Assembly (NCBI RefSeq): GCF_026343115.1
Contig: NZ_JAPEMC010000001.1
Span: 1,922,001-1,986,000 of the forward strand
Direction of reading: 5' to 3'
Length of the DNA stretch: 64,000 bases
DNA from: Streptomyces sp. NBC_00102
GTDB taxonomy: Bacteria > Actinomycetota > Actinomycetes > Streptomycetales > Streptomycetaceae
The notes under the pieces: model-generated
The model's input: the letters and a program-made list of their open reading frames with translations, nothing else
Databases searched by the model: none
Told to the model about the DNA's origin: nothing
In this document: positions 51,599 to 64,000 of the stretch, one piece after another
Layout of the letters: the number at the start of each line of letters is the position of its first letter
Position numbering within the stretch: position 1 is the first letter of the stretch
Translations under genes and position numbers: made by a program

Positions 51599-51671
51599 GC
51601 CCCCGTAGCTCAGTGGATAGAGCAGGCGCCTTCTAAGCGCTTGGCCGCAGGTTCGAGTCCTGCCGGGGGCA
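51599..51671 (+). tRNA. tRNA-Arg (anticodon TCT)
   Basis: This is a 73-base cloverleaf. The acceptor stem GCCCCCG pairs with CGGGGGC (51664-51670), with discriminator A at 51671. The D arm is GCTCAGTGGATAGAGC, the anticodon arm GGCGC-CTTCTAA-GCGCT has loop anticodon TCT, and the T arm GCAGG-TTCGAGT-CCTGC has the standard loop. The CCA end is not encoded. The 3' half of this gene is the insertion point of the integrative element that follows. Confidence 0.96.
51640..51671 (+). other. Probable attachment site (attL) in the tRNA 3' end
   Basis: The tRNA stays intact up to its discriminator base and the tyrosine integrase gene ends 176 bases beyond, the arrangement of pSAM2-type elements whose attP restores the tRNA 3' end. 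The exact core cannot be set because the matching attR repeat is not in this window. Confidence 0.5.
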
Positions 51672-51680
51672 CTGTCGAGA

Positions 51681-51704
51681 GCCCTCCCCATCGGGAGGGC
51701 TTTT
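51681..51704 (+). terminator. Rho-independent terminator after tRNA-Arg
   Basis: An 8-bp stem GCCCTCCC (51681-51688) pairs with GGGAGGGC (51693-51700), has a 4-base loop and is followed by TTTTC, a classical intrinsic terminator 10 bases after the tRNA. Confidence 0.9.
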
Positions 51705-51847: not shown

Positions 51848-53242
51848 TCAGCCTGCGGGCGGCGGCTCCGGGAGGTCTCCCGCAGCTTCGAGCCGCCTCT
51901 TGAGATCGGGAAGTTGTCCGTCGACGCATCGCGCGTAGGTGGCCAGAAGGACCGGAACGCTGTTGCCCGCCCAGTCCGCGACCTGGGCCGGCGGAACGCC
52001 GTCATTCAGCCACTTCGTCAGGCGCGTGTGCCGGTTGTCGTACACCCGCCGTCCGGTGGGCGATTCGAGGACGTGCGGAGCCAACACCGCCTCGCGCGCA
52101 CTGCGCCAGGCCCGCCGGATCACCGAGCCCGCTAGGACTCCGCCGGTCTCACCCTGGAAGAGAAGATCACCGGGCTGGAGGGCTTCGTCCGCGATGTGCT
52201 GACGGAGGACCCGCGTCAGGGCGGGGTGTCCCGGTACGGTGCGGGTCTCCCCCTCCGCGCGGCCCTTGAGGTCGCGTTCCTCGTGGATCTTGCCGGTGTC
52301 GGTCCACTGCTTGCCCACCTCCGGGGTCGCCGTGTGGATCAGCAGTTCACACCACTGGTCCGCGACACCCAGCGCGGGTAGCGACACGTCCTTGCCCCGC
52401 ATGGCCACGGCTTCCTCAGGGCGCAGACCGCAGTAGTACAGCGTCACGAAGAACGCGTGCAGCCGCTTGCCTCCGCGAGGCCGTCGCCGTATCCAGTCGA
52501 GCAGGGCCGCCGCCTGATCGGGGTTCATCAGCGACCGCTTGTCCACGGCGTTCGTGGTCTTGGCGACGGCCGTCGCCTCCTTCCCCTTGGGGAGCGGGTT
52601 GGTCCGCAGAACGCGCCGGCGGATCGCGTGCTTCATGACGACGTTGAGGATGCGGCGGTGACGCTTGCGGGACCAGGCGGCGGCCTGCTTGCCGTCGAGG
52701 CGCGTGTCGATGGCTCGTAGAACCTCATCCACCTTGCCAGGGTCTTCCCAGGTCGAGACGGGCAGCGAGTTCCGCTCCACCCAACGAAGGATGGTCGCCA
52801 CGTCCTCAGGGGCCGTGCCCCGCCGGTTCGCGTTGAACGCCCACTCACGGAGTGCGGTCCGCACCGCCACCGGCTCGAACTGGGCAGGCCGGGCACGAAG
52901 AAGCGCGATGGTGGTCGCGGTCAGCGTCTTCGCGAGGTTCTTCCGGCTGTTGCCGCCGAGTTGGGTCCAGCGCGCGTCCACGTACTCGACGGCGAAGGCG
53001 TACCAGCTCACGGCGGCGGACTTCGAGCGGTGCGAGACCGGCAGGCCGGTCCCGATGACGAACGCCTCACCCTTGCCCGTCGCCGTGATGAGTCCGGAAC
53101 GGAAGCCCTCGGCGAGCGCGACCGTGTCGAACTGCTCGCGCCAGCGCTTTCCGGCTACCTCCCACCGCACCGTGTAACTGGACTTCCGGGTGCCCTTGTA
53201 GACGTAGATCTTGTAGACCTTGACGTCGTACGTCGTCTCCAT
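51848..53242 (-). CDS. int: Tyrosine-family site-specific integrase
   Basis: This 464-residue recombinase would catalyse integration into and excision from the tRNA-Arg site. The N-terminal SAM-like DNA-binding region is followed by the catalytic domain: Arg274 in CGLRPEEAVAM, His405-x-Arg407 in NRHTRLTKW, Trp424 (the H/W position) in VADWAGNS, and the nucleophile Tyr436 in LLATYARCVD. All key residues are present, so it should be active. The C-terminus points at the tRNA, as in pSAM2. Its ATG overlaps the xis stop by one base (TGATG). Confidence 0.95.
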   Translation of the reverse strand: METTYDVKVYKIYVYKGTRKSSYTVRWEVAGKRWREQFDTVALAEGFRSGLITATGKGEAFVIGTGLPVSHRSKSAAVSWYAFAVEYVDARWTQLGGNSRKNLAKTLTATTIALLRARPAQFEPVAVRTALREWAFNANRRGTAPEDVATILRWVERNSLPVSTWEDPGKVDEVLRAIDTRLDGKQAAAWSRKRHRRILNVVMKHAIRRRVLRTNPLPKGKEATAVAKTTNAVDKRSLMNPDQAAALLDWIRRRPRGGKRLHAFFVTLYYCGLRPEEAVAMRGKDVSLPALGVADQWCELLIHTATPEVGKQWTDTGKIHEERDLKGRAEGETRTVPGHPALTRVLRQHIADEALQPGDLLFQGETGGVLAGSVIRRAWRSAREAVLAPHVLESPTGRRVYDNRHTRLTKWLNDGVPPAQVADWAGNSVPVLLATYARCVDGQLPDLKRRLEAAGDLPEPPPAG

Positions 53243-53442: not shown

Positions 53443-54844
53443 GACCGGGTCCCTTCGCTCCGGAGGGCGTCGCGGGCGGTCTCCCGGTTGAGCTGGAGGT
53501 CCCGGGCGATGGTGGCGGCGAGGGCGGCTTCGCCCGGGGTGTGACCGTGGCCGGCGTACTGCCAGTCGGTCAGGACGAGGACGGTGTCCGGCTCCCGGTC
53601 GTCGAGGTCGAGGACGGGTGCTTCCTGAGCGGCGCGGTAGTCGGCGCGAGCCTGACGGAGGGCGCCGAGGGTGGTCGAGTACGTGCCGACTTGGACGAGA
53701 AGTGCCCGCGGAAGCCGAGCATGTGCGCCCACGCCCAGATGCGCCGGTCCGGGTAGAGCGGGTCCAGATCGCGGCAGGCGACGATGAGGCGTCGGGCGTG
53801 GTCCGGGACTCCGTAGCGGTCGAGTTCGGAGAGTTCGCCGATGCGGCGGTCCAGGGTGCCGGTGTTCTCCGCGGCTTTGGTCGCGTACTTGGCCACGTAC
53901 GAGGCGACGGCCTGTTCGCTGAGGTCGGAGCCGCCGTCGAAGGCTTTCACCGGGCGCACGTCGAGCTGTCGGCCCCATCGGAAGGTACGGGCAGGCTGGT
54001 CGCCGGAAACGGGGACCGAGACCGAGGTGTACGTGTGCGCTGCTGCGGCACGTATCGCGTCGGTCAGGAGCGCGACCGTGGCCCACGCGGGCGGAGGCGT
54101 CCCCGGACCGGCCGGTCCGTCGAGGCGTATGACGGCGTGGAAGTGCAGGGCCCCGCGCTTCTGGAACTCGGCGACCTTGCCGTACGACAGACGGACGTGG
54201 GCGGCGAGTTCGCTTCGCGGCAGGCCGGCGCGGGCGGCGAGTTCGCGGCGGAGCCGGGTGGTGAAGCGTTGCCAGAGCTGTCCGGCGAGGTTGTTGAAGA
54301 GCACGGCGCCCGCGTAGTCGTAGGTGGCGGGGTCGAGGGCCGTACCCAGCTCCGGCGCGTTCACCGCGTGGTGGGTGCCGCAGCGGCAGGCGCCGAGATC
54401 GGGGCGGTTGTGGACAGGGCCGAACGAGGGAGCCGTGAGCGTGGCGAAGACGCGCGGGTGGTCGCGGACGCTCGCCGGGATGTCTCGGCGAGCGTCCCCG
54501 GCCAGCCCGGCGCGGATCAGGTGGTAGGTGTCGCCCGCGTACGTCCACGCGCAGGAGGGGCAGCGGGACGCGCGCCGGTTTCCGCAGGCGATGCGGAGGC
54601 GTCCGCCCGGTTCGCCCGCCGTGGAGTAGTGGTGCAGGCTCTCGCCGGTGTTCTTGTCCTTGTGGAGGGCCCAGCCGCTCAGGTGGATCGGGTCGGCGCA
54701 GCCGCCGGTGCGGCGGATCTGTTCCTCCCAGCGGTTGTAGCCGGGGTCCGAGGCGACCCGGAGCACGTCACCGAGGACGATCGGGTCGAGGGGTCGGACA
54801 GCTGTGGACGCATTCTTCGTCGTGGACGGGGCCCGCTGGGGCAT
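53439..54844 (-). pseudogene. repSA: RepSA-like replication initiator, frameshifted
   Basis: The initiator (about 465 residues if repaired) is split by a single-base frameshift near 53679-53686. The first frame runs from ATG 54844 through the Rep domain: Cys-rich ribbon (RIACGNRRASRCPSCAW), the His-rich metal motif GALHFHAVIRLDG, and the stretch VASYVAKYATKA that precedes the catalytic region, to AWAHMLGFRGHFSSKSA. It then continues out of frame. The expected C-terminus (YSTTLGALRQARADYRA onward) is intact in the neighbouring frame and ends at 53439 with the ATGA overlap to xis, which shows that this was the ancestral stop. This could be a real mutation, a programmed shift or a base-calling error. 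Confidence 0.85.
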
Positions 54845-54956
54845 GCTGAAGGTTCCTTCCGGTTGCGAGATCGGACGGGTACGGCTCCCGGGCGGCGGAT
54901 GCTTGGCGGTATCAGAGCCGCCCGGGGCCGGTCAGACGTGGCAGGAAGCGTGCTGG

Positions 54957-55277
54957 TCAGCGCCGCTTGGTGCCGGGCGCGAGCAGGGAGCGCAGCACAA
55001 CGGCGCAGACCGCGACCGAGGCGCCGGTGATGGCGACCGCGAGCAGCAGGGAAACGAGTACGGCCCCGAGGACCAGGACCACGGCCGTACCGGCGCCGAC
55101 GAGGGCGAGCGCGCCGCCCGGGGTGATCTGGACGACCGGGCGGGCCGGCTGCGGGGCGACGGTGGGCACCGTGGGCAGGGCCGGGGCGCTCGGAGTGACG
55201 GTGGTCGGCTGGATGACGGCGGGCGGCGTGATCAACCCGGTGGGCTGCGGCATGGTCGGGACCTTGGGCTGGAACAT
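54957..55277 (-). CDS. Spd-type small membrane protein
   Basis: This is a 106-residue protein with a Pro/Thr-rich cytosolic half (MFQPKVPTMPQPTG onward, with repeated PT and AP dipeptides), a single long hydrophobic segment (ALALVGAGTAVVLVLGAVLVSLLLAVAITG in two parts) and a basic tail. Proteins of this type lie between rep and tra in pSAM2-like elements and act in intramycelial plasmid spread. No enzymatic motif is seen. Confidence 0.7.
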   Translation of the reverse strand: MFQPKVPTMPQPTGLITPPAVIQPTTVTPSAPALPTVPTVAPQPARPVVQITPGGALALVGAGTAVVLVLGAVLVSLLLAVAITGASVAVCAVVLRSLLAPGTKRR

Positions 55278-55298
55278 GAGCGGGTCTCCTTTCGCGGG

Positions 55299-55454
55299 TT
55301 ACTTGACGGCGGGGTCGATGACGGAGGCGAAGAGGCTGTCGGCGAGGAGGTAGCCGCCGAGGAGGAACACGCAGACCAGCCACCAGGGCGGGCGGACGAG
55401 CTTCACGCCGAGGTAGCCGACGACCACGAGGGCGAACCAGAGGGGGACATCCAT
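55299..55454 (-). CDS. Very small membrane protein of the spread module
   Basis: This is a 51-residue protein starting MDVPLWFALVVVGYLG and ending SVIDPAVK, with two hydrophobic helices. A perfect AGGAGG ribosome site 8 bases before the ATG strongly supports translation despite its size. It lies in the spd cluster between two other transfer proteins, so a role in pore formation or spread is likely; the family is not one I can name. Confidence 0.75.
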   Translation of the reverse strand: MDVPLWFALVVVGYLGVKLVRPPWWLVCVFLLGGYLLADSLFASVIDPAVK

Positions 55455-55466
55455 GGGTGGTGCCTC

Positions 55467-55658
55467 CTAGCGGACGGTGCAGCGGTGGGTGCGGGCGGCG
55501 AGCTGGGCGGCGGTCCGGCTGGAGTAGTCGGCGGACCAGCCGCAGCGGTCGGCGGTGCAGACGGCGGCGTGCACGGTCCGGCCGTTGTGGTCGCGGTGGG
55601 TGCCGATCTGCACGGGGCCGATCCGCATCAGGGAGTGGAAGTTGTCGCGTGCGGGCAT
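55467..55658 (-). CDS. Mobile-element transfer protein, SpdA type
   Basis: This is a 63-residue protein, MPARDNFHSLMRIGPVQIGT at its start, with a CTADRCGW pair and a C-terminal HRC that could hold zinc. AAGGAGAG stands before the ATG at 55658; longer upstream frames lack a site. Small proteins of this kind accompany Tra in actinomycete elements and take part in spread between hyphal compartments. Confidence 0.78.
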   Translation of the reverse strand: MPARDNFHSLMRIGPVQIGTHRDHNGRTVHAAVCTADRCGWSADYSSRTAAQLAARTHRCTVR

Positions 55659-55677
55659 GGCGGTCTCTCCTTGCTGG

Positions 55678-56346
55678 TCAGGCCAGGTGGGCGGCGATGG
55701 CGGCGGCGAGGTGGGGCGGGACGCCGAGGCGGGAACGCAGGGTGTCGGTGTCGATCGGAGAGCCGGTGCGGTCGCGGTGCTCGTCGGCGACCTTGCGGGC
55801 ATGATCGACCAGCGCGGCGGGAACGGGCGGCACCGGGGAGGGCTGGACGGGAGGGGCGGAGGCTTCGTCGTCCGGTACTGGCAGCGGGACGGCGTCAGCC
55901 GGGGGTACGGGGTCGCTGTCGACCGTGGTTTCGACGGTCACCGGGTCGGTGGCGGCGGCCGGCATCACCGGCGCCCGGTCCGTGGCCGAGTGGGCGAGGA
56001 GTGTGCCGCCGAGGAAGGCGAGCGCGGGCCATCCGGCGATGCCGAGGCGGAGCGGGGCGGGCGGGTCGGCCAGGTCGAGGAACCCGGCGGTGGCGATGTT
56101 GGCGCCCAGCGAGGCGACCAGCGCCACCAGGAACCAGCACCAGGCCAGTCGGGACGGCCCCTCGGCCCGGAGCCGCCGCCAGGCCGCGACAAGGAGGAGG
56201 TCGACGCTGACCGGGTAGGCCCACGCCTTCCAGCCGTCCTGCCCGGCAGCGGCGGCCAGGTCGTGCAGGTGGGCGAAGGACAGGGCCCCGGCGATCATGG
56301 CTTGGATCAACACCGCGTCGATCCGCAGACGAGGCCGGGCGCCCAT
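55678..56346 (-). CDS. DUF2637-type (SpdB-like) membrane protein
   Basis: This is a 222-residue protein. The N-terminal half has about four hydrophobic helices (AVLIQAMIAGALSFAHLHDLA, WAYPVSVDLLLVAAW, WCWFLVALVASLGANIATAG, LGIAGWPALAFLGGTLLAHS), which is the DUF2637 arrangement. The C-terminal half is a Pro-rich linker plus a winged-helix-like region (TDTLRSRLGVPPHLAAAIAAHL). It is part of the transfer/spread machinery. It starts at ATG 56346, overlapping the previous gene's stop by one base. Confidence 0.82.
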   Translation of the reverse strand: MGARPRLRIDAVLIQAMIAGALSFAHLHDLAAAAGQDGWKAWAYPVSVDLLLVAAWRRLRAEGPSRLAWCWFLVALVASLGANIATAGFLDLADPPAPLRLGIAGWPALAFLGGTLLAHSATDRAPVMPAAATDPVTVETTVDSDPVPPADAVPLPVPDDEASAPPVQPSPVPPVPAALVDHARKVADEHRDRTGSPIDTDTLRSRLGVPPHLAAAIAAHLA

Positions 56347-56543
56347 CAGAAGCCCTCACACGGGCCGCTGTCGGGGTCGTAGCCCTCCGGGAGCCAGTCG
56401 ATCGGCGCGACCAGCAGCGACGCGGCGAGGGACTGGCTGACGGTCTCCGCGAAGTCGAGGTCGGCGCCGGGGGTCTCGGCGTACAGGGCGGCTTGACCGA
56501 GCAGGCGCACGGTGCGGACGAAGTCCTCGCAGTCCGGGCACAT
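56346..56543 (-). CDS. Small acidic protein of the transfer operon
   Basis: This is a 65-residue protein, MCPDCEDFVRTVRLLGQAAL at its start, acidic, with one CxxC pair at residues 2-5 and a late Cys. GAGGGAG seven bases before ATG 56543 supports the start. It is translationally joined to the DUF2637 gene (TGATG). The function is unknown, but such small proteins are regular members of these operons. Confidence 0.7.
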   Translation of the reverse strand: MCPDCEDFVRTVRLLGQAALYAETPGADLDFAETVSQSLAASLLVAPIDWLPEGYDPDSGPCEGF

Positions 56544-56651
56544 GGTGGATCTCCCTCTCTGGGGCATGGCGGGGGTAGGGACCTGGCGCGAAGGCGGTCA
56601 CGCCGACCGGGAAGGGTGGAGGAAGGCTCAGGCGGTGCGGGGCGGGAACGC

Positions 56652-58010
56652 TCAGGTGGTGGCGGTCGGCGAAGCGACGGCCGACGGCACGGGAGCCGAG
56701 GCGGGGACGGCGAGCGGGGGCCGGAAGGCTGCCAGTTCAGGCAGGTCCGGCGTCCGGTCGGCGTACCGGTTGCAGATGTTCACGGCCTGGCGCAGCGAGG
56801 TGTGCGGGGCGCGGATGCGATGCCACCCGCCGGATGAGTCGCCCGCTATGGCGACGCCCTGCTTGTCGGCCGGTATCTGGATGGCGGCGAGGACGGCGTC
56901 CGGCGAGATGTCGCCGAAGGCCATGTTGGCGGAGGTCTCGTCGTTGACGCGGTGGGCGGTACGGCCGGTGAGCTGGGCGCGGAGCATGGTGATGCCCTTG
57001 CCGAGTTCGGAGCCGAACCGCTGCCCGCAGATTTCGAGGTAGATGCCCGCGGCCCTGCCGAGCTGGGCGAGGCGGACAAGGGCGGTGATGATGCGGTCCC
57101 GCCGCTTCTCTTCTTCCTTGCTCGCGTACAGGGCGAGTTCGGCGACTTCATCGACCAGGACCACGACCGGAGTGGGGCGTAGGTCGTCGGGCAGGTCCCA
57201 GATGTCGGCGGCTATCTCCGCGTCCGGTAAGTCGGCGGTGATCCGCTGCTGGACGCGGATGAGTCGGTAGACGTCCGCCATCCGTTCGACGAGGGCGTCG
57301 AGGAGTTCGGCGGCGGCGTCCGGGTTGTCGGCCAGCGCGGAGAACCGGCGGGCCAGCGGGAACAGTTCGACCCCGCGCTTGCAGTCGATCCCTACGAGGG
57401 CGACGTCCATCGGGGCGAGGCCGGCGACCAGGTTGCGCTGGTAGACGGACTTCCCGGACTCCGTGGCCCCGAGCGTGAGGGCGTGGGGTATTGCCCGGTA
57501 GTCGCGGTAGTGCACCGCTCCGTCCTCCCGCAGCGCGACCGGCACGCGCATCGGCTGAGTGTCGAGCTTGGCCGGCATCTGCACCCGCTTCAGCACGTCG
57601 TAGCCGGTCATCCGCACTTCGACCACGCCGGACCGCAGTTCGCGCGAGGTCACGCCGTACATCGAGAACGAGTGGCGGAGCCGGTCCGAGGCGGCGGAGA
57701 CGTCGAAGGCGTCCTGTCCGGGGCGGAGCTTGAGTCGCAGGACCAGGCCGGTACGGGTCGGCCGCAGCCGGAGGATGCGTGGTGGACGCGGCTCCGGCAT
57801 CTCCCGGTTGGTGACCCGCGCCAGGGCGAGCCGCCACCGTGCGGGCGGAACGGTGAGCCCGCACGCGTCCATGACCGAGCCGTACCGGACCAGGACCCGC
57901 AGGGCGGCCAGGGTGGCCCCGAACGCCAGCCAGTACCAGGCGGGGCGCCGCCACCGCAGGAGGCCCGCGACGGCGACGACGAGCGCCAGGGCGACCATGA
58001 AGGTGGTCAT
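56652..58010 (-). CDS. tra: FtsK/SpoIIIE-like conjugative DNA translocase (TraSA type)
   Basis: This 452-residue membrane-anchored hexameric DNA pump moves double-stranded element DNA from donor to recipient hypha. Two N-terminal helices (FMVALALVVAVAGLL and WYWLAFGATLAAL) anchor it. The motor domain has Walker A GATESGKS at 181-188, then DVALVGIDCKRGVEL, and Walker B VVVLVDEVAEL with Asp287-Glu288, followed by GRAAGIYLEICGQRF. The size matches TraSA of pSAM2. ATG 58010 lies 2 bases after the upstream stop. It should be the only element-encoded protein needed for transfer itself. Confidence 0.92.
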   Translation of the reverse strand: MTTFMVALALVVAVAGLLRWRRPAWYWLAFGATLAALRVLVRYGSVMDACGLTVPPARWRLALARVTNREMPEPRPPRILRLRPTRTGLVLRLKLRPGQDAFDVSAASDRLRHSFSMYGVTSRELRSGVVEVRMTGYDVLKRVQMPAKLDTQPMRVPVALREDGAVHYRDYRAIPHALTLGATESGKSVYQRNLVAGLAPMDVALVGIDCKRGVELFPLARRFSALADNPDAAAELLDALVERMADVYRLIRVQQRITADLPDAEIAADIWDLPDDLRPTPVVVLVDEVAELALYASKEEEKRRDRIITALVRLAQLGRAAGIYLEICGQRFGSELGKGITMLRAQLTGRTAHRVNDETSANMAFGDISPDAVLAAIQIPADKQGVAIAGDSSGGWHRIRAPHTSLRQAVNICNRYADRTPDLPELAAFRPPLAVPASAPVPSAVASPTATT

Positions 58011-58012
58011 GG

Positions 58013-58369
58013 TCAAGCCGCCTTGGACCCTGCGGAGGCGGCGGCGAGCGAGGTGACCGCGACGGCGCGGAACGCGATGCCGTGCCGCTTCTGGCCGTTG
58101 AAGTCGTTCTCCCAAGGCCGAGCGATGAGCCCCGTGAGCGCGACCGGCGACCCCATCACCAGATCACCGCTGATCCCGGTCTCCGGGACGGTGACGGACA
58201 GGATCTCGACTTCGTCGTTGGCCGCGAACATGACGTCGACCGTCATGAGCTTCGCTCCGGTCTCGGTGTCGGTGGCGATCTCGCCGGTACGGCGGTCCCG
58301 CAGCTTGACCTGCGGGGACTTGGCGACCATCACGACCGCGCTGGAGGTGTCGACGGGAATCTGACGCAC
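58013..58369 (-). CDS. SCO3933-family regulatory protein
   Basis: This is a 118-residue protein of the small family found just upstream of tra in Streptomyces AICEs (named after SCO3933). It begins RQIPVDTSSAVVMVAKSPQVK and has an all-beta look (LMTVDVMFAANDEVEILSVTV in parts). The GTG at 58369 has GAGGAG nine bases upstream and is the first gene downstream of the operator region, so it heads the transfer operon repressed by the GntR protein. Its biochemical role is unknown. Confidence 0.75.
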   Translation of the reverse strand: MRQIPVDTSSAVVMVAKSPQVKLRDRRTGEIATDTETGAKLMTVDVMFAANDEVEILSVTVPETGISGDLVMGSPVALTGLIARPWENDFNGQKRHGIAFRAVAVTSLAAASAGSKAA

Positions 58370-58378
58370 AGCAGATCA

Positions 58379-58390
58379 CTCCTCTATATG
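58379..58390 (+). repeat. CTCCTCTATATG element, first copy
   Basis: This is an 11 of 12 match to CTCCTCTACATG at the NUDIX start (59310), directly upstream of the GTG of the SCO3933-family gene on the other strand. It is one of three related elements around the repressor gene. Confidence 0.4.
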
Positions 58391-58401
58391 TGCTGCACTC
58401 C

Positions 58402-58423
58402 GTCACTCATGTACATGAGTGAC
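58402..58423. promoter_or_regulatory. 22-bp perfect palindromic operator
   Basis: GTCACTCATGTACATGAGTG-AC is a fully symmetric 22-mer located 33 bases upstream of the transfer operon's first gene. Its CATGAGT half-site recurs at 58451 and 59319. HutC-type GntR repressors bind such inverted repeats, so this is the likely KorSA-like operator of the tra operon. Confidence 0.75.
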
Positions 58424-58441
58424 ATGAAGAAGAGTGCATCA

Positions 58442-58459
58442 CTCCTATACATGAGTCAA
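58442..58459 (+). promoter_or_regulatory. Second operator-like element, duplicated at the NUDIX gene
   Basis: CTCCTATACATGAGTCAA is 17 of 18 identical to CTCCTCTACATGAGTCAA at 59310-59327. Here it also opens a 16-codon frame (MSQPAAKKNSRRFARS), but that frame runs into the end of the repressor gene and lacks a ribosome site, so I treat the match as a regulatory or duplication trace. Confidence 0.5.
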
Positions 58460-58508
58460 CCCGCCGCGAAGAAGAACTCACGACGGTTTGCGAGGAGTTG
58501 AGCGCGCG

Positions 58509-59288
58509 TCAGCTGTCAGCGGGGATGCGGTACTCGAAAACGAACTGGTCAGCGGCCATGAGGGTGTCGCACACCTCCACCACGAGCCCTGCGGCGGTAC
58601 GAGCCTCACGGATCAGGTGGACCACCGGCGTACCCGGGCTGAGAGCGAGCTCCACCGCCTCCGCCTTCGAGGCCGGACGCGCTTGCAGCGTCTCGACGAA
58701 CTCCGCGAACTCATGCCCGTGGTCTTCGAGTCGGGCGTAGATGCCACCGCCGCCGGGGTTCTCTGCGAACAGCTCCGGGATGTCCTTCACGACGTCCCAG
58801 GGAAGGTAGGACGTTGCGGTCTCGACCGGAGTGCCGTCTCGGAAGTAGAGGCGGCGACGGGCCAGCACCTGTTCGCCGGCGGGGACGCCCAGCCGCGCGG
58901 CGGCATCCTCGGGTGCTTCTGTGGGCCCGATGTAGAGGACGCTCACCTTGGCGGTGGCACCGGACTGAGCGGACTCCGCGAGGTAGGCAGCCTTACCGCC
59001 CTGCCGGAGCGAGCGCCGGAAACGGTCGGACGAACGATGCCGCACCGGTGGCCGGTTCTTCACAATCGAGCCCTTGCCGTGCCGGGTCTCCACCAGACCG
59101 CTCGCCCGCACTTCGACCATGGCCTTGCGGATCGTTCCGCCGGAGACGCCGTAGCGGTCGACCAGCTCGGATTCGCTCGGCACCATGTCTCCGGCTTTGA
59201 GAACCCCCGCCCGGATCTGCTGCACGATCTCATCCGCGATCTGCACGTACCGGGGGCCGGAACCGACCCCTCCCGCCGCAGTTCCCAT
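58509..59288 (-). CDS. GntR-family (HutC/UTRA) repressor, KorSA-like
   Basis: This is a 259-residue regulator. The N-terminal winged helix (PRYVQIADEIVQQIRAG, PSESELVDRYGVSGGTIRKAM) binds DNA, and the C-terminal UTRA domain (LYFRDGTPVETATSYLP, FEYRIPADS at the end) senses a ligand. In pSAM2, KorSA keeps the element in the chromosome by repressing its own gene and the activator/transfer functions; this gene takes the same place between tra and the NUDIX gene. GAAGGACT precedes the ATG. Likely targets are the 22-bp palindrome (58402-58423) and the CATGAGTCAA site overlapping the NUDIX start. Confidence 0.88.
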   Translation of the reverse strand: MGTAAGGVGSGPRYVQIADEIVQQIRAGVLKAGDMVPSESELVDRYGVSGGTIRKAMVEVRASGLVETRHGKGSIVKNRPPVRHRSSDRFRRSLRQGGKAAYLAESAQSGATAKVSVLYIGPTEAPEDAAARLGVPAGEQVLARRRLYFRDGTPVETATSYLPWDVVKDIPELFAENPGGGGIYARLEDHGHEFAEFVETLQARPASKAEAVELALSPGTPVVHLIREARTAAGLVVEVCDTLMAADQFVFEYRIPADS

Positions 59289-59309
59289 AGTCCTTCTCTA
59301 CCTCCTATG

Positions 59310-59327
59310 CTCCTCTACATGAGTCAA
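59310..59327 (+). promoter_or_regulatory. Operator-like element overlapping the NUDIX start codon
   Basis: CTCCTCTACATGAGTCAA includes the NUDIX ATG (59319) and matches 58442-58459 at 17 of 18 bases, sharing the CATGAGT half-site of the 22-bp palindrome. A repressor bound here would block both the NUDIX gene and the divergent repressor gene that starts 30 bases away. Confidence 0.5.
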
Positions 59328-59771
59328 TCACAGGAAGCGACCACCCCTCCCCTGCACTCCGTGTCCGTTGCCGGAGTAGTGGTGCGCGAGGACGGGCGAC
59401 TCCTGGCGATCCGCAGAGCCGACAACGGCACCTGGGAACTCCCCGGCGGCATCCTCGAACTCCACGAGACCCCGGAGGCCGGCGTCACCCGCGAGGTCTT
59501 GGAGGAGACCGGCATCCACGTCGAGATCGACGAACTCACCGGCGTCTACAAGAACATGACCCGCGGCATCGTCGCCCTGGTCTTCCGCTGCAAGCCGTCC
59601 GGCGGCACCGAGCGCACGTCCAGCGAGACCACGGCCGTCTCCTGGCTCACCCCCGACGAGGTCACCGACCGCATGAGCGAGGCGTACGCGGTGCGGCTGC
59701 TGGACGCGTTGGACGGGAACGGGCCTCACGTCCGGAGCCACGACGGCAGGAACCTCATCCCAGCGGGATAA
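59319..59771 (+). CDS. NUDIX hydrolase, Pif-like
   Basis: This is a 150-residue NUDIX protein. The full box is present in GGILELHETPEAGVTREV then LEETGI (GX5EX7REUXEEXGU), giving the metal-binding glutamates; SVSVAGVVVREDGRLLAIRR is the first strand pair. It hydrolyses nucleoside diphosphates linked to another moiety. In pSAM2 the NUDIX protein Pif gives a carrier immunity against incoming copies of the element, and the location beside the GntR repressor suggests the same role. ATG 59319 (or 59307) has no ribosome site, so translation may be leaderless. It is the only plus-strand gene of the element core. Confidence 0.85.
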   Translation: MSQSQEATTPPLHSVSVAGVVVREDGRLLAIRRADNGTWELPGGILELHETPEAGVTREVLEETGIHVEIDELTGVYKNMTRGIVALVFRCKPSGGTERTSSETTAVSWLTPDEVTDRMSEAYAVRLLDALDGNGPHVRSHDGRNLIPAG

Positions 59772-59966
59772 AACTTTCTCTACTTCATCAAGGCCCCCGG
59801 CTGCGCTCCGCTCCGCCGGGCGCGCTTCCCGGCTCTGGCCGCGCCCGCGCTCATGCCTCCGGCCCGCTCGGCGCGCCGCCGCCGACGCGCGCCCACAGTG
59901 GATAGACCGGGGATGGAATGAGCCGAGACCGGAGCCCGCGGCTTCAAGACATGCCTCCGGCGGGGG

Positions 59967-60018
59967 CGCTCCGGCACCGGGATGGGAGGGGCGCCGTTCG
60001 CGGGTGCCGGCCGGAGCG
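59967..60018. repeat. Inverted repeat with 4-base bulge
   Basis: CGCTCCGG-CACC (59967-59978) pairs with GGTG-CCGGCCGGAGCG (60003-60018); the right arm carries an extra CCGG. It is the outer member of the structured tract. Confidence 0.6.
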
Positions 60019-60034
60019 TGGTGAGCGTCGTGGT

Positions 60035-60186
60035 GGCTCCCATCCCGACCACCTCCGACCCAGGCAGAGCCGAGCAGTCGCGGCCCAGGGCGTCAAGGTC
60101 GTTCGTACAGTGGCGCGCTCCACCTTGACGCCCTGAACCACGACCGCTCCACGGTGTGTGGGTCGAAGGCGGACGGGATGGGAGCC
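60035..60186. repeat. Long near-perfect hairpin, 65-nt arms
   Basis: The left arm 60035-60099 and right arm 60122-60186 align without gaps; the outer 13 bp (GGCTCCCATCCCG) and inner 14 bp (CAGGGCGTCAAGGT) are perfect, and about 51 of 65 positions pair. The loop is 22 bases. Such a cruciform is large for a terminator and could be a single-strand origin, a transfer locus or a small RNA. Confidence 0.7.
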
Positions 60187-60216
60187 GGGGTAGCGGTGGG
60201 ATGACATCGGCGGCGA

Positions 60217-60725: not shown

Positions 60726-62045
60726 TCAGAGCGGCTTCCCATGAAAGATGATGATCTGTTCGGCAGCGAATCTCATCAAGGGGATTTCACGTGACAGTTC
60801 GGTATCATGGGAAAAGGGTGCATATTTTGGCAGCTCGCCTTCCTTGGCGTGCACCAAAGAATTTCTTACTTTGTAGATTCGCTTGGCCATGGATGACAGC
60901 ACCGATCCATCACCCGGACGCCCTAGGTCCAATTTTGGAGCACCAGCAAAGGCGACTTCGGTATTTCTGTAGTAGTCAACCAGGGTGTCATCATAGGAAG
61001 TTAGGTCGTCAACGAGTCGCGTCGTGTCGACAAACCTGTTGAGAACAAGCTGAAGGGCCCGCTGCTCATTCACCCCACCTTCATCTTTAACTTGACGCTG
61101 AGCCCGATTTACGATTTTAATGATGCCGTTCACATCACGGGCCCTACGCACTGAAAACGAGGGATCTGTAATTCCGCGCCTGACTTGCTCGATCAAGTCA
61201 TCATTGAACACCTTGTCGAAATAGTGTTCGGCAATATGGTAGTAAGAAAGATACTCCAGGAGGGGAATTTCGGCAGCAACACCCATTAGGTAGTGATGGA
61301 CGAGATCGGGTGTATAGGTCTGCCTCGGTGCATCGATGGACCCCAGTACACTTCTGCGAACTCTCTGCATTCGTCCGACCTCTAGAAGTGGGTTGATGCC
61401 GATCGTCGCAGCCATTCCCGTGTTGTATGCGATGTGAAAAAGGAGCGAGGTTGCCAGGTCTTCATAGTCGGCCCGAGGCTTGGCGGAGCTCACGCGAAGC
61501 GAAGTAACATCGAGAATCTCCCCAACAAGGCCGAGTATCGTGTCGTCTTTTCTGGACCCCTCCCCGAGGTTGGAACTTGTCGACAAAGCCCTTCTGAGTC
61601 GGTTTTTCAAAACACGCCATCTGGGGCCCTGCGCGATTTCTGCATTATTGGCTATGTAGCAGAGCAGGTACGCCGCAACCTCCTTGGAAGGGTAACCAAC
61701 AGTAATGATCACCGGATTTTCGCTTTGCCCGATAAATTCAGCTTTCTCCAGATGCCTCTCAAGAGGGCTGTAAACGTTCAGTTGCGCAATAGTGAACTCC
61801 CCGCGATTGTGCCAATTAAAGGAACTGTGAGTGTTAGAGGTGACTTGAGAAAGGGAGTTAATCACCTCGTCTATTTCCTCGTCGGTTAGTGGTTCGATCG
61901 CGCGCACGTCCCCCCTGGAGACGGTCATCGCCGCCGGGGGAACGAGGAGTAGCCCTCTCCCTGATGTTTCCAGATTAGGCAAGACCATGGAGAGGCCCTT
62001 GAGCAAAGATTCCTTATTTACAATTTCCGCGACTGAAGAATTCAA
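60726..62045 (-). CDS. HEPN-motif protein partnered with a protein kinase
   Basis: This is a 439-residue, largely helical soluble protein of no family I can name. Near the C-terminus KVRNSLVHAKEG carries the HEPN Rx4H motif (Arg394-Asn395...His399), the catalytic signature of many RNase toxins and abortive-infection proteins. The start is TTG 62045 with AGAGG six bases upstream. It is 59 bases downstream of the kinase gene on the same strand, so the two are probably one transcript. G+C is low for the genome. I infer that the kinase controls or is controlled by this HEPN protein during phage attack, but this is not demonstrated. Confidence 0.65.
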   Translation of the reverse strand: MNSSVAEIVNKESLLKGLSMVLPNLETSGRGLLLVPPAAMTVSRGDVRAIEPLTDEEIDEVINSLSQVTSNTHSSFNWHNRGEFTIAQLNVYSPLERHLEKAEFIGQSENPVIITVGYPSKEVAAYLLCYIANNAEIAQGPRWRVLKNRLRRALSTSSNLGEGSRKDDTILGLVGEILDVTSLRVSSAKPRADYEDLATSLLFHIAYNTGMAATIGINPLLEVGRMQRVRRSVLGSIDAPRQTYTPDLVHHYLMGVAAEIPLLEYLSYYHIAEHYFDKVFNDDLIEQVRRGITDPSFSVRRARDVNGIIKIVNRAQRQVKDEGGVNEQRALQLVLNRFVDTTRLVDDLTSYDDTLVDYYRNTEVAFAGAPKLDLGRPGDGSVLSSMAKRIYKVRNSLVHAKEGELPKYAPFSHDTELSREIPLMRFAAEQIIIFHGKPL

Positions 62046-62104
62046 GAAAACCTCTCATAGTGTCCACCGGAGCGGCAGCTTCGGAGGCGTGTAGCACTGT
62101 TACG

Positions 62105-63283
62105 TTAAGCAGGCGCATCAACGGGAGAAGGCGTCGCCTCAAGTCCTTCAACGTCAGCAATTAGTTCACGGACATTCTGATACCTATGGGAAATATCGTG
62201 CGCCGCGCATTTCTGCACTATCCGACTTAGCGTGTCCCCGCGAGACATGAGAGCCTCCCTTCCGCTAAATATATACGAAAGGACCCATCCGATTGAATGA
62301 ATTTCATTACATGTGGCATACTCCTTAAAGTTCGCCAATAGTGGATCTCGGATTGTCCCTCGCATCTCCGTCTTCGTTCGCGTGAACTGAGAATTCCTGT
62401 CCTTCACGAGGCCAAAATCGGAGAGCTTAACCAGAACCGCTCCACCGTGGAAAGTTTTCACCAAGACATTTTGCAGGCTCACGTCGCGATGGAGAAGCCC
62501 TGCTCCATGGATGTAATTAATGCCGTACAAAAATTGGAGTGCAATTCTTTTTCGCGAAGAGAAATGCAACTTATTATTGCGCCTCCTGATGTACTCGCGA
62601 AGTGTTGAGTCGCAAAATTCCATCCTATACTCATTGCGAACTTCGTCATACTGATAGACCTCGACGATATACGGAAAGCTTAGGCGCTTGAGTATATTGA
62701 ATTCCTGACGGAATCGATAAAGATCTCGATCATCGAGGTCTTTATTGGCCCGCTTGACTGCAAATTTAATCCCGTAGTCAGGGTCCGTGTAGGAGAATAC
62801 CTTTGCATACGAGCCTTCGCCGATCAGCTGCAACCGGGCATTACTCTTGGATTTGACCAGTTTAATCTCTACATCCGGGCGAAACAGAATTGGCGCGTAT
62901 TTGACTATATGGATTTGCCCGAAGGTGTCTGGAACAGCACTTCCCCCGCTAGGCATCAGCCACGATCTGCAGTCCTTTATCGCAGTCGCATAAGACTTCA
63001 TAAGATCGACTGCAATCCCAGCACTCTCGAGGGATTCCACAAGTTCTTGCACCTCCTTGGTGAGGGCAATCATTTCCCTGCTCGGCTCGGCCCAATAGTG
63101 CCGGGTAGTTTCTGCCCGATCGTTGATCGATTCGAAGTGACCATTCAACCTCTGGTGAATGCTGGCAAAAGCCCGACCGAAGCGAGAATCGCTCTCATAA
63201 AGGCGAAGAAAAGCATTAGACACTTCCACACCTTCATATTTCTGTGAAAGGTCGTCCAACATGAGCTCGGTAGGGTCGGGCAC
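62105..63283 (-). CDS. Serine/threonine protein kinase with novel N-terminal region
   Basis: This is a 392-residue soluble kinase. Residues 1-150 are helical and match no domain I recognise. The kinase part follows: Gly loop GEGSYAKVF (155-163), ATP lysine Lys177 in FAVKRAN, catalytic loop HRDVSLQN with Asp267 and Asn272, and DFG at 289-291, so it should be active. It stops soon after the domain and has no membrane segment, unlike typical PASTA kinases. GTG 63283 has GAGGAG six bases upstream. G+C is about 47% (62161-62220: 28 of 60), marking recent arrival. It is probably co-transcribed with the HEPN-motif gene; single-gene kinases such as Stk2 are known anti-phage factors. Confidence 0.82.
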   Translation of the reverse strand: MPDPTELMLDDLSQKYEGVEVSNAFLRLYESDSRFGRAFASIHQRLNGHFESINDRAETTRHYWAEPSREMIALTKEVQELVESLESAGIAVDLMKSYATAIKDCRSWLMPSGGSAVPDTFGQIHIVKYAPILFRPDVEIKLVKSKSNARLQLIGEGSYAKVFSYTDPDYGIKFAVKRANKDLDDRDLYRFRQEFNILKRLSFPYIVEVYQYDEVRNEYRMEFCDSTLREYIRRRNNKLHFSSRKRIALQFLYGINYIHGAGLLHRDVSLQNVLVKTFHGGAVLVKLSDFGLVKDRNSQFTRTKTEMRGTIRDPLLANFKEYATCNEIHSIGWVLSYIFSGREALMSRGDTLSRIVQKCAAHDISHRYQNVRELIADVEGLEATPSPVDAPA

Positions 63284-63713: not shown

Positions 63714-64000
63714 CTACAGGGTGCGGACGGCTTTGGCGACTGACGTCATGCGGTTCGGGCTGCATCGCGATCTTCTGAAGATTCGCCAAGACTTGAGTCG
63801 TGGCATAGCGCATTCGACGGGTGCTCGGGTCGTGGCCAGTGTGCGGTTGACGGTTCGTTCCGTCGGCGTCAGCAGGCCGTTGGGGGGCGCCTGCGTCCGG
63901 TGGTTCCCCAGGGGCCGGCGCCGGTGTAGGCGCGGGCGGCGAGGATGGGGACGCCCGTGCTCGGGCGAGTAGTCGGCCTGGACATCGCCCACGCGGTCGC
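63714..64000 (-). pseudogene. IS5-type transposase relic (C-terminal part)
   Basis: The minus strand encodes LTPTERTVNRTLATTRAPVE, then CAMPRLKSWRIFRRSRCSPN, then RMTSVAKAVRTL and a stop, the C-terminal end of a DDE transposase of IS5 type. Upstream, the expected DAGYTGAGPW-like segment appears in another frame (AARAYTGAGPWGTTGRRRPP), so a frameshift separates the two parts; the conserved reading ends early without the usual EQQR-like tail. The gene is cut by the window edge. It is inactive as seen and marks a recombination-prone border. Confidence 0.75.

Follow-up and report, generated by a model that had tools for sequence, protein, structure and literature searches.

The kinase and HEPN-like genes

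We analysed a stretch of 64,000 nucleotides (the window) from Streptomyces sp. NBC_00102, contig NZ_JAPEMC010000001.1, taken from a genome of 8.6 Mb whose nearest named relatives in protein searches belong to Streptomyces. Near the end of the window lie two co-directional genes, one for a putative serine/threonine (Ser/Thr) kinase of 392 amino acids and one for a HEPN-like protein of 439 amino acids. An initial annotation, made from the letters alone, had combined them into a candidate two-gene defence system. Its open reading frames (ORFs), their strands and lengths, and the 59-bp gap agree with our own. The comparisons described below suggest instead that the two genes are probably independent, individually mobile single-gene modules that both landed in one cargo slot of an actinomycete integrative and conjugative element (AICE). 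The features of the locus are as follows.

51599-51672: tRNA-Arg gene, from the tRNA search
51626-51702, no strand: att copy at the 3' part of tRNA-Arg; direct repeat, with a second copy at 68010-68086 beyond the window
51848-53242, minus strand: AICE integrase (Phage_integrase, E 1.1e-4; at 22.5 bits it stays under the curated 27.1-bit cut-off)
53570-54844, minus strand: RepSA replication initiator of the pSAM2 type (E 7e-128)
55678-56346: DUF2637 protein
56652-58115, minus strand: FtsK/SpoIIIE-type transfer protein, Tra (E 9e-42)
58509-59288, minus strand: GntR/UTRA regulator of the AICE backbone (Pfam match and comparison with other AICE loci)
59300-59771, plus strand: NUDIX gene of the AICE backbone (NUDIX E 1.9e-18; C-terminal part of ORF 58488-59771, start approximate)
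59944-60193, no strand: AICE cargo-slot border, which recurs next to a lone kinase gene (L018, L019, L020) and next to a lone HEPN gene (G087)
60726-62045, minus strand: HEPN-like (MauJ/DzbB-like) gene, 439 amino acids, TTG start, motif R394-N-S-L-V-H399
62046-62104, minus strand: intergenic gap of 59 bp
62105-63283, minus strand: Ser/Thr kinase gene, 392 amino acids, GTG start, N-terminal domain 1-146, kinase domain 151-356
63714-63992, minus strand: C-terminal fragment of a transposase (DDE_Tnp_4, E 7.5e-7), an insertion sequence relic upstream of the kinase gene

The end of the tRNA-Arg gene is repeated directly over 77 bp with one mismatch (51626-51702 and 68010-68086), which delimits an element of ~16.5 kb with the kinase and HEPN genes inside. 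Integrase, RepSA, FtsK-like Tra and the att repeat at a tRNA gene are all present, and the element is an AICE. The earlier description of the pair as cargo of an integrative element close to an insertion sequence relic is borne out by these features. Its observation that the genes are low in G+C is likewise confirmed, with measured values of 0.49 (kinase) and 0.51 (HEPN) against 0.65-0.79 in the majority of 1-kb blocks across the window. Four other Streptomyces have kinase relatives of 52-54% G+C (L018, L019, L020, L049), and seven other genomes of the genus have HEPN relatives of 50-53% (L040-L046). Low G+C is thus a trait of both families, and it gives no sign that the two genes arrived together.

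Separate distribution of the two genes

Among the loci that were compared, homologues of the two genes are never adjacent. A check with hidden Markov models of all ORFs of at least 50 amino acids in the fetched loci showed the HEPN family to be absent from all 31 other kinase loci and the kinase from all 12 other HEPN loci, the duplicates L048, L059 and L073 being uncounted. Searches of 392 genomes of the same genus, at cut-offs of 1e-20 and 1e-60, placed the HEPN family in nine, including one distant member (E 1.6e-21), and the kinase in three; the window genome is counted in both lists and is the only one that they share. The same holds for class-wide searches of 394 genomes, where the kinase is present in six, the HEPN family in four, and the overlap consists of the window genome only. 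When the DNA of the pair was compared with 199 relatives (own genome included), only HEPN pieces were recovered, in two other genomes. No paper on a kinase-HEPN pair of this kind was found in the literature searched, which is no proof of absence.

The arrangement in the window initially makes a two-gene defence system attractive, in which the kinase would sense infection and then phosphorylate and switch on the neighbouring HEPN ribonuclease (RNase). Such a system would be a two-protein analogue of Ire1 and RNase L, in which a KEN HEPN RNase is fused to an S/T/Y kinase according to PMC3710099. The co-directional genes, the gap of 59 bp, the similarly low G+C, a search for a terminator-like site at 62046-62104 that found none, and the intact catalytic centres of both proteins are all consistent with this model. 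However, the pair is kept in none of the 31 and 12 other loci, the same slot elsewhere holds either gene alone, and the kinase has no recurrent partner. We therefore reject the two genes as one conserved system, and we consider a kinase that senses for the HEPN RNase very unlikely. Likewise very unlikely is a combined version, in which a new kinase defence family has also become newly wired to the adjacent HEPN RNase, so that the logic of Ire1 and RNase L is split over two proteins.

The compact gene pair might also be read as a toxin-antitoxin module, with the HEPN protein as the toxin and the kinase as a post-translational antitoxin. However, in none of the 12 other HEPN loci does the kinase accompany the HEPN homologue, and the kinase is therefore not a required antitoxin for the HEPN family. 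In addition, the kinases of the KKP system are themselves the toxin according to PMC11341870. We regard this as the least probable of the explanations.

Either gene can occupy the same cargo slot

The synteny test removes a tempting two-gene system, and a shared cargo slot explains why the genes meet in the window. G244 carries an AICE with two arms that align with the window, one at 84-86% (53461-59890) and the other at 75% (64890-67711). Flanked by these arms it has a HEPN gene that is inverted relative to the window, and no kinase. An inverted HEPN gene without the kinase also lies beyond the border in G087 (59765-60193), and G370 has the HEPN gene alone beyond the border segment 59769-59869.

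The kinase, in turn, is found alone and inverted beside the border in L018 (window 59947-60190, 85%), L019 (window 59679-60189, 76%) and L020 (window 59944-60087, 80%), and in L020 the far-arm segment 67275-67707 (84%) follows directly. Integrase, RepSA and Tra were not found in the fetched flanks of these three loci, and so the sites may be AICE remnants or other AICEs. Thus, one border is followed by the HEPN gene alone in G244, G087 and G370 and by the kinase alone in L018, L019 and L020, which indicates that the slot takes either gene singly.

The slot of G244 (L079:15605-17717) additionally holds genes for two hypothetical proteins of 318 and 208 amino acids that have no Pfam match.

The kinase and its family

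The Pfam Pkinase model covers residues 151-356 of the kinase (E 1.9e-28). Lys177, His265-Arg266-Asp267 and Asn272 are identical in all 118 aligned homologues, 2 of the 120 listed having been dropped by length, and all 44 rows of a further alignment have Asp289-Phe290-Gly291. With these catalytic motifs intact the protein appears to be an active kinase, in line with what had been read from Lys177, HRD and DFG in the single sequence.

The region before the kinase domain is conserved together with it, and no Pfam family was found over this region at E < 0.1. The structure model of the protein (mean predicted local distance difference test score, pLDDT, 76.6; predicted template modelling score, pTM, 0.53) includes five helices within residues 1-106, and the VIA rows shown for this model all cover the kinase domain. 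With residues 1-146 as the query, a search that is restricted to proteins 0.55-1.75 times as long as the query, and hence blind to larger fusions, returned 93 proteins. A Pfam kinase label is carried by 92 of these, and the remaining protein (P0259, 217 amino acids) is without one. In a cross-phylum alignment of 21 rows, N54 is present in 21, H62 in 19, R69 in 19 and G114 in 20. The domain can be recognized by Asn54, by H-[YF]-x-A-x-x-S-R near positions 62-69 and by S-G-G-S-x-x-P near 112-118.

We considered whether the N-terminal domain is a second HEPN domain, given that R56 and H62 resembled an R-x5-H motif in close relatives. This reading was rejected because position 56 is variable in the 21 rows that include distant relatives (14 R, 4 K, 2 C and 1 W) and because its spacing from H62 is inconstant.

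Relatives with 53-75% identity occupy 20 actinobacterial loci. More distant ones, at ~31-46% identity, are plasmid-borne in Rhodococcus, Sarcina, Geobacillus, Priestia, Paenibacillus, Lactococcus and Campylobacter. For 82 of the 91 plasmid records, 80% or more of the query aligns at a single place; 62 of the 91 come from Campylobacter and 21 from Lactococcus, and 71 are typed as conjugative. Judged from these alignments, the family has a fixed architecture, a predicted helical N-terminal domain followed by a kinase domain, and mobile elements carry it in Actinomycetota, Bacillota and Campylobacterota. No full-length model for it was present among the Pfam, NCBIfam and PADLOC results obtained. 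Viral contig scans gave no relatives of the kinase, and a phage collection gave no match at E 1e-20.

Several copies have noteworthy surroundings or lesions. In two Lactococcus loci that were read (among L055, L058 and L059), the kinase gene follows a recombinase gene and has a bacteriocin region downstream of it. A Priestia koreensis plasmid (L054:5953-7597) has a gene with a nucleotidyltransferase domain that begins 46 bp downstream of the kinase relative on the same strand and is followed by a small hypothetical gene. The Jiangella copy (L034/L073) is broken by two in-frame stops, one TAG and one TAA.

The HEPN-like protein and its family

The RNSLVH sequence of the second protein had been proposed as an R-x4-H motif of HEPN type. 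Consistent with this proposal, Arg394 and His399 are both conserved (108 of 109 homologues for each), after 11 of the 120 listed were dropped by length. The DzbB profile matches 53 of 53 family members and the MauJ profile 51 of 53; the window protein itself reaches 18.9 bits with MauJ, below the 28-bit cut-off. These matches make it a member, by sequence, of a MauJ/DzbB-like family that recurs as AICE cargo, and it is probably an RNA-cutting protein of HEPN type.

The protein had also been described as helical. Its length of 439 residues stands, whereas residues 1-186 are mixed alpha/beta in the structure model (pLDDT 89.1). Comparison of this model with HEPN proteins gave weak matches, Foldseek returned no match at E <=0.001, and no solved structure matched by sequence at E 1. 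A missing HEPN fold at RNSLVH was to have counted against the original proposal; these comparisons do not show it to be missing, though they support the fold at most moderately. Relatives of this protein were not found in the viral contig scans.

One HEPN relative (L042:5375-7287) overlaps by one base the end of a gene for an AAA_33/Zeta-toxin-like P-loop kinase (AAA_33 E 3.3e-20). This is another sort of kinase-HEPN neighbourhood than the pair in the window.

Genes adjoining the kinase relatives

When the neighbours within 4 kb of the kinase at 32 loci, the one in the window among them, were all compared with one another, no constant partner emerged. The families that recur in at least three loci are serine recombinases, with 8, tyrosine integrases, ABC-type proteins and the slot-border frame, with 4 each, and regulators and an antisense frame, with 3 each, where labels were assigned by the analyst and clusters can mix frames. 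At 12 HEPN loci, again counting the one in the window, the neighbours cluster most often as GntR type (7 loci) and NUDIX type (6 loci), both of which belong to the AICE backbone.

Several actinobacterial kinase relatives lie near Gabija, GmrSD, Septu-like or Ppl genes. A neighbour in L024 matches the GajA model at 1.8e-219, and the pooled kinase neighbours include matches to GajB (1.7e-190) and PDC-S08 (1e-137) whose source genes were not traced. Other PADLOC models found near kinases are GmrSD (L029), HEC-06 (L020/L048), PDC-M01A/B (L033), and Ppl (2.8e-107) together with PDC-S01 (L072). Of the 20 proteins picked by eye and scanned singly, 10 had no PADLOC match at the cut-offs used; these include an AbiH protein near the kinase in L027, which was recognized by Pfam. 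The gene at L024:3731-5785, which adjoins GajA, resembles a UvrD-type helicase by eye.

To place these matches in context, a test set was compared with a control. The test set comprised 126 of 126 picked genes of at least 200 amino acids; they flank 18 of the 31 kinase loci, which were selected by the length of their flanks and include no plasmid loci. The control comprised 106 of 153 picked genes (47 were dropped) from loci at chosen positions in other genomes. The tables list the first 25 of 135 families for the test set and the first 25 of 28 for the control. Matches listed for the control are generic kinase models (mad3 and PD-T4-6 among them), mad6, mad8, SspH, MkoA, C3a189 and one to MzaA (4.3e-65); apart from MzaA they are of generic kinase and FtsK type. 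In the test set mad3 and PD-T4-6 are matched too. Because the control is unmatched for mobile context, we take the defence neighbours as support and not as a measured enrichment.

These neighbourhoods also bear on the possibility that the genes serve the element itself, the kinase as a plasmid or AICE regulator or a factor that excludes competitors, and the HEPN protein as an addiction toxin or a housekeeping RNase. The occurrence of the kinase on many plasmids, most of them typed conjugative (71/91 records), the recombinases that recur nearby and a phage collection devoid of kinase matches at E 1e-20 all fit such roles. However, no constant transfer-gene or antitoxin neighbour accompanies the kinase, and several relatives lie near defence genes. 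We consider a maintenance or regulatory function unlikely on balance.

Relation to known defence systems

Few kinase-based phage defences are known. PMC11341870 (2024) names Stk2 as the only one besides KKP and treats it as a single-locus system, and PADLOC lists PD-T4-6 as a further kinase-like defence. As described in an excerpt of PMC6532042, Stk2 is a kinase that is switched on by a phage protein and that kills the cell by phosphorylating host proteins. The kinase in the window resembles Stk2 in being a single locus without a constant partner, in its intact catalytic motifs and in having the kinase domain after an N-terminal region, and the PADLOC Stk2 profile matches it at E 6.4e-30. However, this match is limited to profile positions 112-352 of 500, the window kinase ends soon after its kinase domain, and mad6 is the profile with the slightly higher score (E 3.6e-31 vs 6.4e-30).

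PD-T4-6 is also a kinase, and its profile matches from E 2e-27, but the homology is not full-length and the best stretches fall in the kinase domain (e.g. 14-208 of 327). Because the best match starts at profile position 14 and window residue 150, proteins of this family have ~146 extra residues before the kinase domain. With KKP it shares the nature of a Ser/Thr kinase on a mobile element, for which toxic phosphorylation of host targets has been proposed (PMC11341870). KKP has two kinases and a phosphatase, whereas here there is one kinase, and full membership was rejected since no partner family recurs across the 32 kinase loci. A second kinase of the same family appeared in the fetched loci as one weak match only (L027), and phosphatases were not the subject of a dedicated model search.

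The HEPN protein is related to Dazbog in that its residues 251-410 match DzbB positions 192-315 of 341 (E 1.9e-10). This match is not full-length and leaves the N-terminal half of the protein uncovered. The model of DzbA, which we take to be the DUF262 protein of Dazbog, had no match among the 10 AICE proteins scanned, a set that did not include every small ORF. Full membership in Dazbog, which contains a DUF262 according to an excerpt of PMC10952713, was rejected on these two grounds. In its conserved R-x4-6-H motif the window protein resembles HEPN superfamily RNases such as the AbiA C-terminal domain, HepT, Csm6 and ApeA.

Proposed functions of the two modules

As the initial annotation had supposed of each component, the kinase and the HEPN gene are both plausible anti-phage genes when taken separately. 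We favour a reading of them as two single-gene abortive-infection candidates stacked in one slot. The kinase fits the logic of Stk2 because it is partnerless, mobile and motif-intact. In such a scheme, the N-terminal domain (1-146) would keep the kinase idle until it meets a product of a phage or another foreign element, and is thus the likely sensor of the trigger. The released kinase might then phosphorylate host proteins, so that growth stops before phage are made. The HEPN protein would be a separate effector of abortive infection of the RNase type, whose alpha/beta N-terminal half could sense infection and whose HEPN-like C-terminal domain (~241-438) could cut RNA using R394 and H399.

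Several points weigh against this interpretation. The two genes run in the same direction, and the 59 bp that separate them yielded no terminator-like site; for this reason they are possibly co-transcribed and a functional link in the window strain is possible. The nearest homologues (P0122 at 91% for the kinase, P0002-P0005 at 61-65% for the HEPN protein) lie on contigs outside the compared loci, and three kinase loci are short contigs of 3.2-5.1 kb (L025, L026, L036). The control for the defence neighbours, unmatched for host as well as mobile context, gave generic matches and one MzaA. The window kinase matches Stk2 and PD-T4-6 mainly in the kinase domain, and the trigger, the substrates, and protection from phage by either gene are predictions.

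The kinase family, and not the pair, is the part that deserves follow-up. It might represent a further family of single-gene kinase defence that crosses phyla and has a dedicated sensory N-terminal domain, a proposal that we make tentatively. It would add a lineage that is open to experiment and has a defined candidate for the sensor domain.

Other features of the element

The far arm of the AICE (65123-67718; L050:7123-9718, beyond the window) encodes two further GntR/UTRA regulators, which together with the gene at 59 kb (58509-59288) gives the element three GntR genes. In AICE relatives, part of the slot border (60036-60186) matches its own reverse, and the border thus includes a long imperfect inverted repeat.
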